DNA of 64,000 bases from Bradyrhizobium sp. B097 (GTDB lineage: Bacteria; Pseudomonadota; Alphaproteobacteria; Rhizobiales; Xanthobacteraceae): contig NZ_CP152412.1 of the NCBI RefSeq assembly GCF_038957035.1, positions 6,010,501 to 6,074,500 on the forward strand. The letters run 5' to 3'. Position numbers and translations under genes: made by a program. The notes under the pieces were generated by a model. The model ran no database searches and was not told where the DNA came from. It was given only the letters and a program-made list of their open reading frames with translations. Below, piece after piece: positions 38,060-41,694 of this stretch (the first letter of the stretch is position 1; each line of letters starts with the position of its first letter).

Positions 38060-38601
38060 TCAACTTGCCCGCAGGGAAAGAAACGGACGCAGACGCAACC
38101 GAACCGAATCAACTGGACGCGACGCTGATATTCTGTGGAAAAGGTAAATAAAGTCTAACTAAATTCTTAATCGCGGACGGGCAATGAAGGAAGTCCGCTC
38201 GACTACGGAGTTGCTTGCCCGAACCATCGTCAAGTCATCGACTTGCATGGTGGCGATGTGCGTCGCTCCCGATCACTGCGCAGCCGAACGATCCACAGCA
38301 AACAGCCGCGGCCATCGCGCGCATCCCATCACGATCACGCAGCGCGACCTCGTCCGACCAGTGCGTCATGCAAGGGTGCCCCCAAAATGAAAGACCCGTC
38401 CGGGGGGACAACCGGACGGGTCAAAGCCATATGGGCGCTTGGGGTGGATGGGCGCTCGCGCCTGATATAGCCGGGGAGGGATAAACCGCTCCCACACACA
38501 TAAGTCGTGAGAGGACGGCGGACGTTCAAATCGGCGGAGATTTTTTTAACCTTTTCGCCGCCCGGTTCCATCGCACCGTCGCAGGCGTTCGGCACCGGAA
38601 A
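38060..38601. other. 542-bp gene-free region with a strong stem-loop
   Basis: Contains an 11-bp perfect stem, GACCCGTCCGG (38393-38403) and CCGGACGGGTC (38412-38422). On the minus strand it is followed by TTTCATTTT, so it could terminate transcripts arriving from the subtilase gene about 180 bp upstream. CCCCAA before and TTGGGG after the stem could extend it. A low-GC patch at 38135-38175 could be a promoter. Short open frames here have no family features. A small RNA is possible. Confidence 0.4.
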
Positions 38602-40263
38602 TCACTGCGCAGCACGGTGATTTGCCGCGGAATCGTCCGACGCGATCGACGGCGCGGGTTCATTCAACGCGCGGCTCACGGAAGTGTTATTGCCGTCCAC
38701 TGCCTGTGCAGGCTGCGACGGTTTGTCCAAGGCAGCCGCGACGGGAGCATTGGTCGCCGCCATCACCGCGGCAAGCGCGTCCGCCTCCCCGGCCCCGAAC
38801 AGATCATCACGTCCGGGTGTCCCGAGATCGCGCGCCGTGCCGGTCAGGACCTTGCGCACCTCGGCGGGCTTCAGTGCCGGACTGCGCTCCAGCACCAGTG
38901 CCGCGATGCCGCTGACGAACGCGGCCGAAAAAGAGGTGCCCGACATCAGCTGGTACTTGCCGTCCGGCACCGGCACGAGGAGATCGGCGCCCGGCGCCGC
39001 CAACGCGATGTAGCTGCCGCGGTTCGAGGCCGCCATCAGCCGTTCGCCGGCATCGATGCCGCCGACCGCGATCACGTCGGGATTGGCGGCCGGATACAGC
39101 GGCGGCGATTTCGGGCCGGCATTGCCGGCCGCGGCAACCAGCACGACGTCCCTCGCCGCGGCGGCGGCCACGGCGCGCGCGACAAGTGCGTCCTGCGGTC
39201 CGGCAAAGCTCATGTTCACGATCTGCGCGCCGTGCGCCACCGCGTAATCGAGGCTCCTGAGGATCACATAGGACGTACTCTCGGCGCCGCCGGCGGCCAC
39301 ACCGAAGGCGCGGATGGCCAGGATCCGCACTTCCGGCGCACTCCCCGTCAGCCGGACGCGCGCCGCGATCACGCCGGCGACGGCGGTGCCGTGGGCATGC
39401 GGACCATCCTTGCTGCCGAGCGCATCGAACGTATCCGCAACCGTGTTGGCCAGTTCCGGATGCGCGGCATCAATGCCGGAGTCGATGACGGCAATGGTGA
39501 CGTTCATCCCGCGCGCCAGCCGGTGCGCCTCGGGCAGATGCAGCTGCGTCTGGGCGTATTGCGCCGGATCACTGCCGCCGGCCGTCGGCTTCTGGTCCTG
39601 CAGCGCGTAACGATAGTTCGGCTGCACCGAGTGGACGCTGCTGTCGCTTGCGAGGTCGCGGACCACCGCGTCGGCGGAACGATTGCCGGTCGTGCGGAAC
39701 AGGCCGATCGTCGCGCCGAGCAGCGGGATGTTCTGCGAGGCGATCCGCCTCAGGCCATGGCGACGCGCCAGCGCGTCGGTCTGGGTCTCGGTCAATGCGC
39801 CGTCGATCTCCGCCACGAGCTCGTTCGGCACGGTTCGCGTGGCCGCGGCCGCCACGTCCTGCGCGCGGCTGCTGCCGCCACCGCCGGCCCTGCCCTTCCG
39901 CGCAGCGCCGTTGCCGCCACCGTTCACGGCGACCGGCCGGCTGGAGCATTGGCGCGTGCCGTCATCACAATCGGCAGAGAAACGGGGGGCGTCACGCGCA
40001 CGGGGCGGCGGCATGCTCGATCGCGGCCCATCACCGGTCCACGACGTCGCCGGGCCGTGCAGCGGCGCGCGGTCAGCCAGCCCGCCACCGGCCCCGCCGA
40101 TGCCGGGATTGACCCGCGGCCCGATGGAGAGCTGCGGCCTGCCGCCGATCGGCGATCGCATGAAATTCTGGGCGTAGGCCGAGCCGGCAACGGACGCCAG
40201 CAACAACACGGCGGCCGCAATGGCCGCTCGGTTCGTCGATCTGGTCCGGCCGTTGGCGGTCAT
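38602..40263 (-). CDS. Secreted S8-family serine protease (subtilase)
   Basis: 553 residues from ATG 40263, which has GAGG 6 bp upstream; a longer start at 40353 adds a basic leader. Signal peptide 1-31 (cleavage after AYA). A Gly/Arg-rich linker is followed by a propeptide-like domain at about 146-219 (NELVAEIDGALTETQTDALARR, SVHSVQPNYRY). The catalytic domain has Asp261 (VIDSGID), His291 (HGTAVAG), Asn381 (AAGN) and Ser444 (SGTSFSAAF). Last gene of a sigma/anti-sigma/protease operon, 37 bp after the anti-sigma gene. Likely periplasmic or surface. Confidence 0.9.
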   Translation of the reverse strand: MTANGRTRSTNRAAIAAAVLLLASVAGSAYAQNFMRSPIGGRPQLSIGPRVNPGIGGAGGGLADRAPLHGPATSWTGDGPRSSMPPPRARDAPRFSADCDDGTRQCSSRPVAVNGGGNGAARKGRAGGGGSSRAQDVAAAATRTVPNELVAEIDGALTETQTDALARRHGLRRIASQNIPLLGATIGLFRTTGNRSADAVVRDLASDSSVHSVQPNYRYALQDQKPTAGGSDPAQYAQTQLHLPEAHRLARGMNVTIAVIDSGIDAAHPELANTVADTFDALGSKDGPHAHGTAVAGVIAARVRLTGSAPEVRILAIRAFGVAAGGAESTSYVILRSLDYAVAHGAQIVNMSFAGPQDALVARAVAAAAARDVVLVAAAGNAGPKSPPLYPAANPDVIAVGGIDAGERLMAASNRGSYIALAAPGADLLVPVPDGKYQLMSGTSFSAAFVSGIAALVLERSPALKPAEVRKVLTGTARDLGTPGRDDLFGAGEADALAAVMAATNAPVAAALDKPSQPAQAVDGNNTSVSRALNEPAPSIASDDSAANHRAAQ

Positions 40264-40300
40264 GGTGACCTCAACTCGGCGCAGGACCGTCAGCTGCCGT

Positions 40301-41041
40301 TTACGGGGTCTCGACCGCGAGGCTGACGATCTTCTCTTTCTGCAAACGGGCAATCAGCGATGCGACGCCATCCTTGTCCATCGCGCGGAACTGCAATCGG
40401 AACATTCCGCCCTTCCCGTCGACGATCGCGCCCTGGTAATTGTCGAGCAGCGACGTGATGTCGGCGATCCTGGCGTCCGGCGTGAAGCGCACCAACAGCC
40501 GCGTCGGCGCCGCCGCCACGCTGGCGCCGAGGTCGCGGGTGATCGGCGCACTGGGTGCAACGGCCGCGCTCGGTGCGCTGCGTTGTTCGGCGGCATCAAG
40601 CGAGGCGGTCTGGAACGCGGCCGGCTCGCTGCGCATCAGCACCGCGCCGATCACGCCGGCCTGCAGCAACACCACGAGCGCACCGAGGCTGGACGACCAA
40701 GCCAGCGTCCGCGGCGACAATTTCGAAAAGAACTCCGAGACCGAGGCCGACATGCGCGCGCCCGCCGACGGCTTGCGCTCCGGCTCGGCATCGATCGCGG
40801 CAAACAGCTTCTGCATGGCACGCGCAGAGGGCGCACCGAGGCTCTCGTTGAGGCCGATCGTCTCGGCATATTCCTCGCGGATGACGGCATACTGCCTGGC
40901 CAGCTCCGGATCGGAAGCGAGCGCGTCCTCGACGCGGCGCGCGTCACGCGCGTTCAGCGTGCCGGCCGCATGCCAGGGCAGCAGCATCTCGACATCGTCA
41001 GGATCTTGACCCTGCACTTTCTTGTTGCTCGCAGCCATCAT
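40301..41041 (-). CDS. Membrane anti-sigma factor with propeptide-like periplasmic domain
   Basis: 246 residues from ATG 41041, overlapping the sigma stop (ATGA). Cytosolic anti-sigma part 1-90 (LLPWHAAGTLNARDARRVEDALASD), without the HxxxCxxC zinc motif. One membrane helix at about 113-135. Ala/Ser-rich linker, then a periplasmic domain at 179-246 with the pattern TRLLVRFTPDARIADITSLLD, GAIVDG, GMFRLQF, VASLIARLQKEKIVSLAV. This alternation resembles inhibitor_I9/fervidolysin-type propeptides, the kind also found in the protease encoded next door. Sequence resemblance only; not tested. Confidence 0.85.
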   Translation of the reverse strand: MMAASNKKVQGQDPDDVEMLLPWHAAGTLNARDARRVEDALASDPELARQYAVIREEYAETIGLNESLGAPSARAMQKLFAAIDAEPERKPSAGARMSASVSEFFSKLSPRTLAWSSSLGALVVLLQAGVIGAVLMRSEPAAFQTASLDAAEQRSAPSAAVAPSAPITRDLGASVAAAPTRLLVRFTPDARIADITSLLDNYQGAIVDGKGGMFRLQFRAMDKDGVASLIARLQKEKIVSLAVETP

Positions 41042-41694
41042 GGCCAACCTCGCTCGACACCGGCTGCCTTCAGCAACTCGGCAAGTTTCTTGCGCGCATA
41101 GAACAGGCGCGTCTTCACGGTGTTCTCCGGAATCCCGACGATCTCAGCGACGTCTTCCACGGATTTCTCGTGATAATAGACAAGATCGACAATTTCCCGG
41201 TGTTCCGCCGATAGTCCCGTCAGGCACTTACGCAGCGTGTCACCCGTGTCCTTCTTCTGCACCACCGTTTCCGGATCGTCGGACGTGTCCTCGATCGCGT
41301 TCGCGGCCTCATCGTCCAGTTCGGCGTCCTTCCTTCGCCGCAGCGAAGACAACGCCTTGAACCGGGTAATCGCCAGAAGCCAGGTTGAAACGGCGGATCG
41401 TCCCTCGAATTTGCCCGCCTGACGCCACACGTCCAGGAAGACCTCGCTAATAAGGTCCTCCGCCACCTGTTCGTCCCGCACGAGCCGAAGCCCGAAGCGG
41501 TACACCCTGACATGATGCCGTCCGTACAGCACCTGCATGGCGAGCCGGTCGCCTTGAGCGATCCGAGCGATCAGAACCTCGTCTGAAGCCGCCTGTGTCG
41601 CGCTCAATGGCCGTCTCGCAAAGTTGGTCTGAGGGGGGTGGTGCGTGGTTCGACGCGAGAGGCAAGATTCTTCACAATACGGCAATGTGCGCAC
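41038..41694 (-). CDS. ECF-type RNA polymerase sigma factor
   Basis: About 218 residues if the GTG at 41694 is used; TTG codons further in are alternatives, since the first 30 residues look non-conserved. Sigma region 2 at about 51-115 (LYGRHHVRVYRFGLRLVRDEQVAEDLISEVFLDVW) and region 4 at about 155-205 (GLSAEHREIVDLVYYHEKSVEDVAEIVGIPENTVKTRLFYARKKL). First gene of a three-gene unit with its membrane anti-sigma factor and a secreted protease, so an envelope signal is expected. Confidence 0.92.
   Translation of the reverse strand: MRTLPYCEESCLSRRTTHHPPQTNFARRPLSATQAASDEVLIARIAQGDRLAMQVLYGRHHVRVYRFGLRLVRDEQVAEDLISEVFLDVWRQAGKFEGRSAVSTWLLAITRFKALSSLRRRKDAELDDEAANAIEDTSDDPETVVQKKDTGDTLRKCLTGLSAEHREIVDLVYYHEKSVEDVAEIVGIPENTVKTRLFYARKKLAELLKAAGVERGWP

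Follow-up and report, generated by a model that had tools for sequence, protein, structure and literature searches.

An extracytoplasmic function sigma factor operon of Bradyrhizobium with a prodomain-like anti-sigma domain, an S8 subtilase, and a candidate subtilase-linked cleavage site

In a stretch of 64,000 nucleotides of the genome of Bradyrhizobium sp. B097 (contig NZ_CP152412.1, positions 6,010,501 to 6,074,500; hereafter the window, with coordinates counted from its first letter), three genes of the minus strand form one operon, coding successively for an extracytoplasmic function (ECF) sigma factor, a membrane anti-sigma factor, and a secreted subtilase of family S8 (Table 1). The start of the anti-sigma gene overlaps the sigma stop in an ATGA (41041-41038), and 37 bp separate the anti-sigma stop (40303-40301) from the subtilase ATG (40263). 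Reading frames, order, overlap, and gap are thus as described in an earlier note on this DNA, which had proposed a three-gene unit. The same note started the sigma gene at GTG 41694, and this is over-extended: the conserved promoter (41624-41652) lies inside the long frame, and the NCBIfam model PRK12515 (1.7e-104) begins at its residue 31, for which reasons TTG 41607 is the likely start. That start would leave a very short leader after the ECF promoter.

The anti-sigma factor has the layout of membrane anti-sigma factors, with a cytoplasmic domain, one transmembrane helix, and a periplasmic domain (a topology predicted from the sequence), and its gene overlaps that of an ECF sigma factor. It falls outside the zf-HC2 class (14.5 bits for a cut-off of 22.2) and has no cysteine; CxxC is present in several of its phylum-level relatives. 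The RsiV-type domains DUF3298 and DUF4163 have no Pfam match in it at E up to 1. Within the transmembrane helix, Gln127 (40661-40663, minus strand) is kept in 88 of 105 relatives and is possibly a helix-weakening residue for a site-2 protease.

The periplasmic domain had been likened by eye to subtilase prodomains, and the protease had been said to bear a propeptide of the same kind. Both likenesses find support. In the AlphaFold model the anti-sigma domain follows the order beta-alpha-beta-beta-alpha-beta (strands E and helices H: E180-186, H192-201, E205-210, E213-218, H223-235, E239-245), with pLDDT of 86-91 over residues 181-240 and of 75 for the final six residues, and the subtilase propeptide has the same order of elements over residues 148-215 (E148-154, H159-168, E171-179, E184-191, H197-205, E210-215). 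The fold search was discarded as proof of kinship by itself, the fold being generic and tied with ACT, Lrp/AsnC, BLUF, and S6: in Foldseek nothing reaches E 0.001 (best 8.1e-3), the subtilisin prosegment 1spb_P comes at rank 7 (TM by target 0.60) mixed among BLUF, S6, EF-G, and ACT folds, and in VIA scores subtilisin prosegments tie with ACT/Lrp. Hence we rely on profile comparisons with controls. Against the operons' own propeptides, the profile of the anti-sigma domain scores 32.8, far above chance (at most 15.9 across 150 column shuffles), the profile-profile comparison gives 94.4%, and the match is specific within the set of subtilase and sigma windows. Shifting the propeptide alignment circularly does not give a clean control, since half-matches of 25-34%, or even most of the original match, survive the shift. 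PF22148 (Fervidolysin_NPro-like) is the only Pfam family to match more than two of 33 related domains; it matches 12, one of which (Dongia, 24.1 bits) exceeds the cut-off of 21. With the domain profile, a sequence search of the PDB gave a single chance-level match (E 1.5), and a search of the window's own genome gave the anti-sigma factor itself as sole match.

True subtilase prodomains are the N-terminal part of the protease and carry an inhibitory tail. The anti-sigma domain lacks such a C-terminal tail reaching the active site. From the conserved valine of strand 4 to the chain end there is a median of 7 residues in 120 relatives (exactly 7 in 79 of them, at least 11 in 16), and in the window protein the strand is predicted to run to residue 245 of 246. 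Because the domain ends with strand 4 and no plugging tail follows, inhibitor-like binding to the active site of the subtilase, as inferred in the earlier note, is unlikely. The subtilase itself has an intact catalytic triad (Asp261, His291, and Ser444, the last already named as the active serine). All three residues are kept in 199 of 207 aligned operon subtilases, an alignment that counts the window's sequence twice (P0001 and L001); the other eight are short frames (141-490 residues) missing one or more triad positions. Directly 3' of the subtilase gene lies a Rhizobiales-2 sRNA (RF01723, 93.7 bits; 38393-38493, minus strand).

The anti-sigma factor was found in 44 of 60 relatives in all, and in 164 of 248 family genomes, 89 of 297 order genomes, and 12 of 289 class genomes. 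To survey whether the three genes stay together had been an earlier suggestion. The linkage is broadly kept, although the frequent separation in related genomes that the earlier note had named as evidence against its reading is seen in part. In locus sets that overlap in part, the subtilase adjoins the sigma pair in 28 of the 29 loci L002-L030 and in 72 of 80 genus-centred loci (two of the eight misses are contig ends, and three further ones retain 3' remnants of the gene); among the hand-picked family loci it stands beside the pair in 43 (two of them broken, L055 and L063) and is absent in 15 of 58. In other families and orders an S8 gene adjoins in 50 of 52 loci, once on the other strand; these loci were hand-picked from the order- and class-search matches, plus one from the search of relatives. 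Both misses are contig ends, so that all 50 remaining loci have the S8 gene, and the trio is therefore ancient. The domain profile alone has matches in 38 of 398 phylum genomes. Eighteen of these matches were fetched: 12 have sigma factor, anti-sigma factor, and S8 protease (with the anti-sigma gene on the opposite strand in L255), four lack the S8 gene, and two (L267, L268) look like chance matches. In four order-level loci (L174, L185, L187, L189) the subtilase precedes the sigma gene rather than trailing the anti-sigma gene.

The subtilase has been lost repeatedly, and the sigma pair mostly retained. On a tree of 163 tips built from the sigma factor and the cytoplasmic anti-sigma domain, 22 tips lack the subtilase and parsimony gives 13 state changes. 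L055, where just a prodomain fragment remains and no catalytic domain, was set by hand as subtilase-less; its juxtamembrane motif (see following) is intact, and an assembly artefact is possible. In L043, also subtilase-less, only a sigma frame of 65 residues was found before the anti-sigma gene, which makes its tree position weak; that pair may be decaying. L078, whose locus lacks a sigma gene, was left off the tree. We also considered that the operon subtilase had moved elsewhere. Some S8 protease is held by 11 of 13 genomes without the operon gene (30 matches in all), and eight of the 30 matches were checked. Since their best listed hits are 27-33% identical to operon subtilases, which have 44-63% identity to the window's, none of the eight is a relocated operon protease.

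Between the membrane helix and the prodomain-like domain, the linker is poorly conserved except for a single island, [FY]143-x-T145-A146-S147. Conservation over its five positions is 2.4, 1.5, 2.6, 3.3, and 3.0 bits, compared with about 0.9-1.3 for the neighbours (105 sequences), and A146 is the most conserved residue (87/105). A motif matrix, built solely from 60 protease-bearing loci that lie outside the window's family, was then applied within the family, with identical sequences removed and with L188, L198, L096, and L132 (contig ends), L087 (a repeat of L003), L221, and L222 dropped. Kinship ignored, a score of at least 8 is reached by 122 of 133 family sequences with the subtilase and by 7 of 23 without it (medians 13.3 and 3.6); in the subset L031-L090, nearly all of it outside Bradyrhizobium, by 31 of 42 and 1 of 16, kinship again ignored. 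Per residue, between 42 loci with and 15 without subtilase, conservation falls on average by 1.59 bits across residues 143-147, by 0.21 across the transmembrane helix, and by 0.01 across the domain, and among all positions tested (100-246) T145 and F143 lose most. A relaxation of the domain itself after protease loss was rejected: its HMM score drops from 62.0 to 50.8 bits (p 0.035), but the mean drop per residue is the 0.01 just given, and the domain appears largely kept. Since the motif decays after the older losses and the domain stays, [FY]xTAS, which the earlier note had passed over, is a candidate for a subtilase-linked cleavage site; such a decay is what one should expect of a site that the subtilase, or an enzyme acting only in its presence, cleaves or recognises.

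Upstream of the sigma gene, GAACC-N16-CGAC occurs in 89 of 108 regions (family, order, and class loci) and GAACC-N16-NGAC in 197 of 218 loci, both counts without a shuffled control. The match in the window is not significant alone (allowing at most one mismatch, one or more such sites occur in 57 of 100 shuffled windows), and its weight comes from this conservation across relatives, which implies that the operon would be autoregulated by its sigma factor. Genome-wide, the pattern has 13 occurrences in the window's genome and its reversed form 1; the corresponding numbers are 149 and 10 in ten relatives, and 71 and 8 in nine subtilase-less genomes. When 93 site loci (20 of them hand-chosen for similar sites) were compared with the nine genes behind the sites of the window's genome, 53 shared one and 40 none. 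Naming genes from Pfam, a bacterial alpha-2-macroglobulin stands behind a site in 13 of the 20 genomes searched (L277 included), with diverged spacers, a protein with peptidoglycan-binding and trypsin-like domains in 10, and an SPFH/Band_7 protein in 8. A regulon including alpha-2-macroglobulin, a protease trap, is accordingly put forward as a prediction, as other ECF factors could read similar sites.

Table 1. Features of the operon in the window
Feature	Positions	Strand	Basis
ECF promoter of operon, CGAACC-N16-AGACCAA	41624..41652	-	conserved upstream of sigma gene; putative autoregulation
ECF sigma factor	41038..41607	-	open frame reaches 41694; likely start TTG 41607; Pfam sigma70 regions 2 and 4
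Anti-sigma factor, 246 aa	40301..41041	-	in 36/36 same-genus genomes, own genome included
Cytoplasmic anti-sigma domain, residues 14-84	40790..41002	-	AlphaFold helices H14-26, H31-43, H45-67, H73-84
Transmembrane helix, residues 113-136	40634..40705	-	helix in AlphaFold model at low confidence
FQTAS motif next to the membrane, residues 143-147, candidate for site-1 cleavage	40601..40615	-	conserved island that decays where the subtilase was lost long ago
Prodomain-like C-terminal domain lacking the inhibitory tail, residues 180-246	40304..40504	-	AlphaFold, profile comparisons
Secreted S8 subtilase, 553 aa	38602..40263	-	PF00082 1.7e-45
Sec-type signal peptide, residues about 1-31 (AYA/Q cut)	40171..40263	-	read from sequence by general signal-peptide rules
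Propeptide, residues 146-222	39598..39828	-	PF22148 E 0.039, below cut-off; fold order; pro-subtilisin matches
Catalytic domain with Asp261, His291, Asn381, Ser444	38788..39543	-	PF00082, aligned catalytic residues

The reading that we favour, at slightly less than even odds (about 45%), is that of an ECF sigma/anti-sigma switch controlled by proteolysis, in which the operon subtilase acts upstream of the anti-sigma factor. The subtilase would mature and shed its own prodomain; the mature enzyme would engage the anti-sigma factor through the prodomain-like domain, the conserved stalk, or both; the stalk would be cut at [FY]xTAS, just outside the membrane, and a site-2 protease would then release the sigma factor, which would raise the expression of its own operon and of envelope genes, alpha-2-macroglobulin among them. 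The periplasmic sensor would be a tethered relative of subtilase prodomains without the tail that blocks the active site. At the level of sequences, the motif result ties the protease to the stalk and the profile result ties the protease family to the sensor; we infer a contact between them, with its binding, cleavage, and direction of signal, and the reading of these promoters by the sigma factor. The earlier model of an anti-sigma factor that senses its protease thus retains the prodomain likeness, the persistence of the genes, and an evolutionary link of the protease with the anti-sigma factor, and it loses the binding at the active site. A fuller version is a tentative proposal, to be held with reserve: that the operon's own subtilase serves as site-1 protease (or as activating ligand), that a tailless relative of its prodomain recognises it, and that it cuts [FY]xTAS and so turns on a protease-homeostasis regulon with alpha-2-macroglobulin, a system spread through the order and into other classes of the phylum.

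Several observations weigh against a switch driven by the operon subtilase. Taken alone, the window's own domain has no match to PF22148. Loss of the subtilase leaves behind the sigma pair, the domain, and, in 14 of the 16 family loci concerned, the promoter; either another trigger must therefore exist or the protease is joined by other inputs. Alternatively, a second role of the domain, such as steric bulk against the site-2 protease, is possible. When motif scores are compared between loss clades and their nearest protease-bearing relatives, 8 of 14 clades score lower, 3 the same, and 3 higher (p 0.11 by sign test). Scores are lower in all seven older complete losses (p 0.008), a subset picked after seeing the data and including L043 with its broken-looking sigma gene. 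The six clades that are not lower are L055, with its prodomain fragment, and five of the six recent losses within Bradyrhizobium, where the motif is kept (L108 being the lower one). Finally, the mirror-tree analysis does not single out the domain, whose partial correlation with the catalytic domain is 0.299, compared with 0.241 for the cytoplasmic domain.

The persistence of the domain after loss of the subtilase, together with the ties to ACT, Lrp/AsnC, BLUF, and S6 in fold searches, is also what one would expect if it were a generic ferredoxin-like domain that senses another signal or hinders the site-2 protease by its bulk, with a gene neighbourhood that reflects co-expression only. This we regard as very unlikely, given that PF22148 alone matches more than two of the 33 domains, once above the cut-off, and that, among subtilase and sigma windows, the domain profile specifically matches the operons' own propeptides. 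It is also conceivable, if rather improbable, that the subtilase is merely an effector of the sigma factor and the domain a chaperone, anchor, or tailless buffer for the nascent protease. Subtilase prodomains can assist folding in trans, the subtilase gene comes last in an operon that has a conserved ECF promoter, and effectors are often lost where regulators are kept, a pattern that the 13 state changes fit; yet the decay of a juxtamembrane motif outside the domain upon loss of the protease would be unexplained, as would the retention of the domain itself. A third possibility is that the mature subtilase is sensed by the domain, as lysozyme is by RsiV, and that [FY]xTAS is cut by another enzyme, for instance signal peptidase. 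Signal-peptidase sites follow a -3/-1 small-residue rule, which the alternating small residues T145 and S147 fit; however, the most conserved residue is the middle one, A146 (87/105), which the rule does not require, and a signal-peptidase site should be independent of the subtilase unless binding is the only trigger. As precedents, RsiV becomes sensitive to signal peptidase after binding its enzyme (PMC5014341) and the site-1 cut of RsiP is made by SipP (PMC8844934). On balance we consider this possibility unlikely too, and retain the switch in which the subtilase acts upstream of the anti-sigma factor.

Were that reading true, a prodomain relative turned sensor would be a clear case of how signalling receptors arise, and a protease, its sensor, and a protease trap would be joined in one envelope circuit in Bradyrhizobium and many relatives. 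To our knowledge, the trigger is unknown for many ECF sigma factors, and this conserved family would give one of them a concrete and testable trigger, its own secreted protease. Among the results of literature searches, no title or abstract opening describes this arrangement, and the ECF classification literature may already note the S8 neighbour. In a review of non-canonical ECF factors (PMC8999054), the two passages on subtilases concern the degradation of sigma factors and ECF54, which is without anti-sigma factor, and neither deals with the cleavage of an anti-sigma factor. By word search, a review of site-2 proteases (PMC10202637) mentions neither subtilisin nor the S8 family, prodomains, or propeptides; a paper on anti-sigma coevolution (PMC7406223) mentions neither subtilases nor S8 peptidases, and one on ECF factors of Bradyrhizobium japonicum (PMC3420878) neither proteases nor subtilisin.

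Among known systems, the fervidolysin-type prodomains (PF22148) and 1spb_P have the topology of the anti-sigma domain and profile similarity with it; in contrast with them, the window domain is tailless and, closing an anti-sigma factor, stands in trans to the protease. POIA1 (1v5i), which we take to be a stand-alone member of the propeptide-like inhibitor family, offers an earlier example of a prodomain-like protein that targets subtilisin in trans, but it is soluble and not part of a signalling protein. RseA (with DegS) and RsiW are anti-sigma factors with a transmembrane helix that undergo site-1 and then site-2 cleavage; we know of no prodomain-like sensor or operon-encoded subtilase in systems of these types. 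The ECF26 pair RpoE6-EcfR6 of Sinorhizobium meliloti likewise lies beside a serine protease gene, SMa0142, whose expression rises with the sigma factor. ECF26 differs (PMC6180224) by its promoter (-35 GGAATA, -10 GT, where the window operon has GAACC-N16-CGAC) and by the divergent orientation of the protease gene; SMa0142 is compared here as a serine protease only. The nearest mechanistic precedent is RsiV/sigma V of Bacillus subtilis, an anti-sigma factor with an inhibitor-like outer domain in which binding of a secreted enzyme starts proteolysis: the outer domain of RsiV binds and inhibits lysozyme and is thereby exposed to site-1 cleavage (PMC5014341). There the enzyme is lysozyme, and the domains that bind its active site, DUF4163 and DUF3298, are not prodomain-like; in the window, the enzyme is encoded in the operon itself, the domain is a tailless one, and the binding is what we infer.

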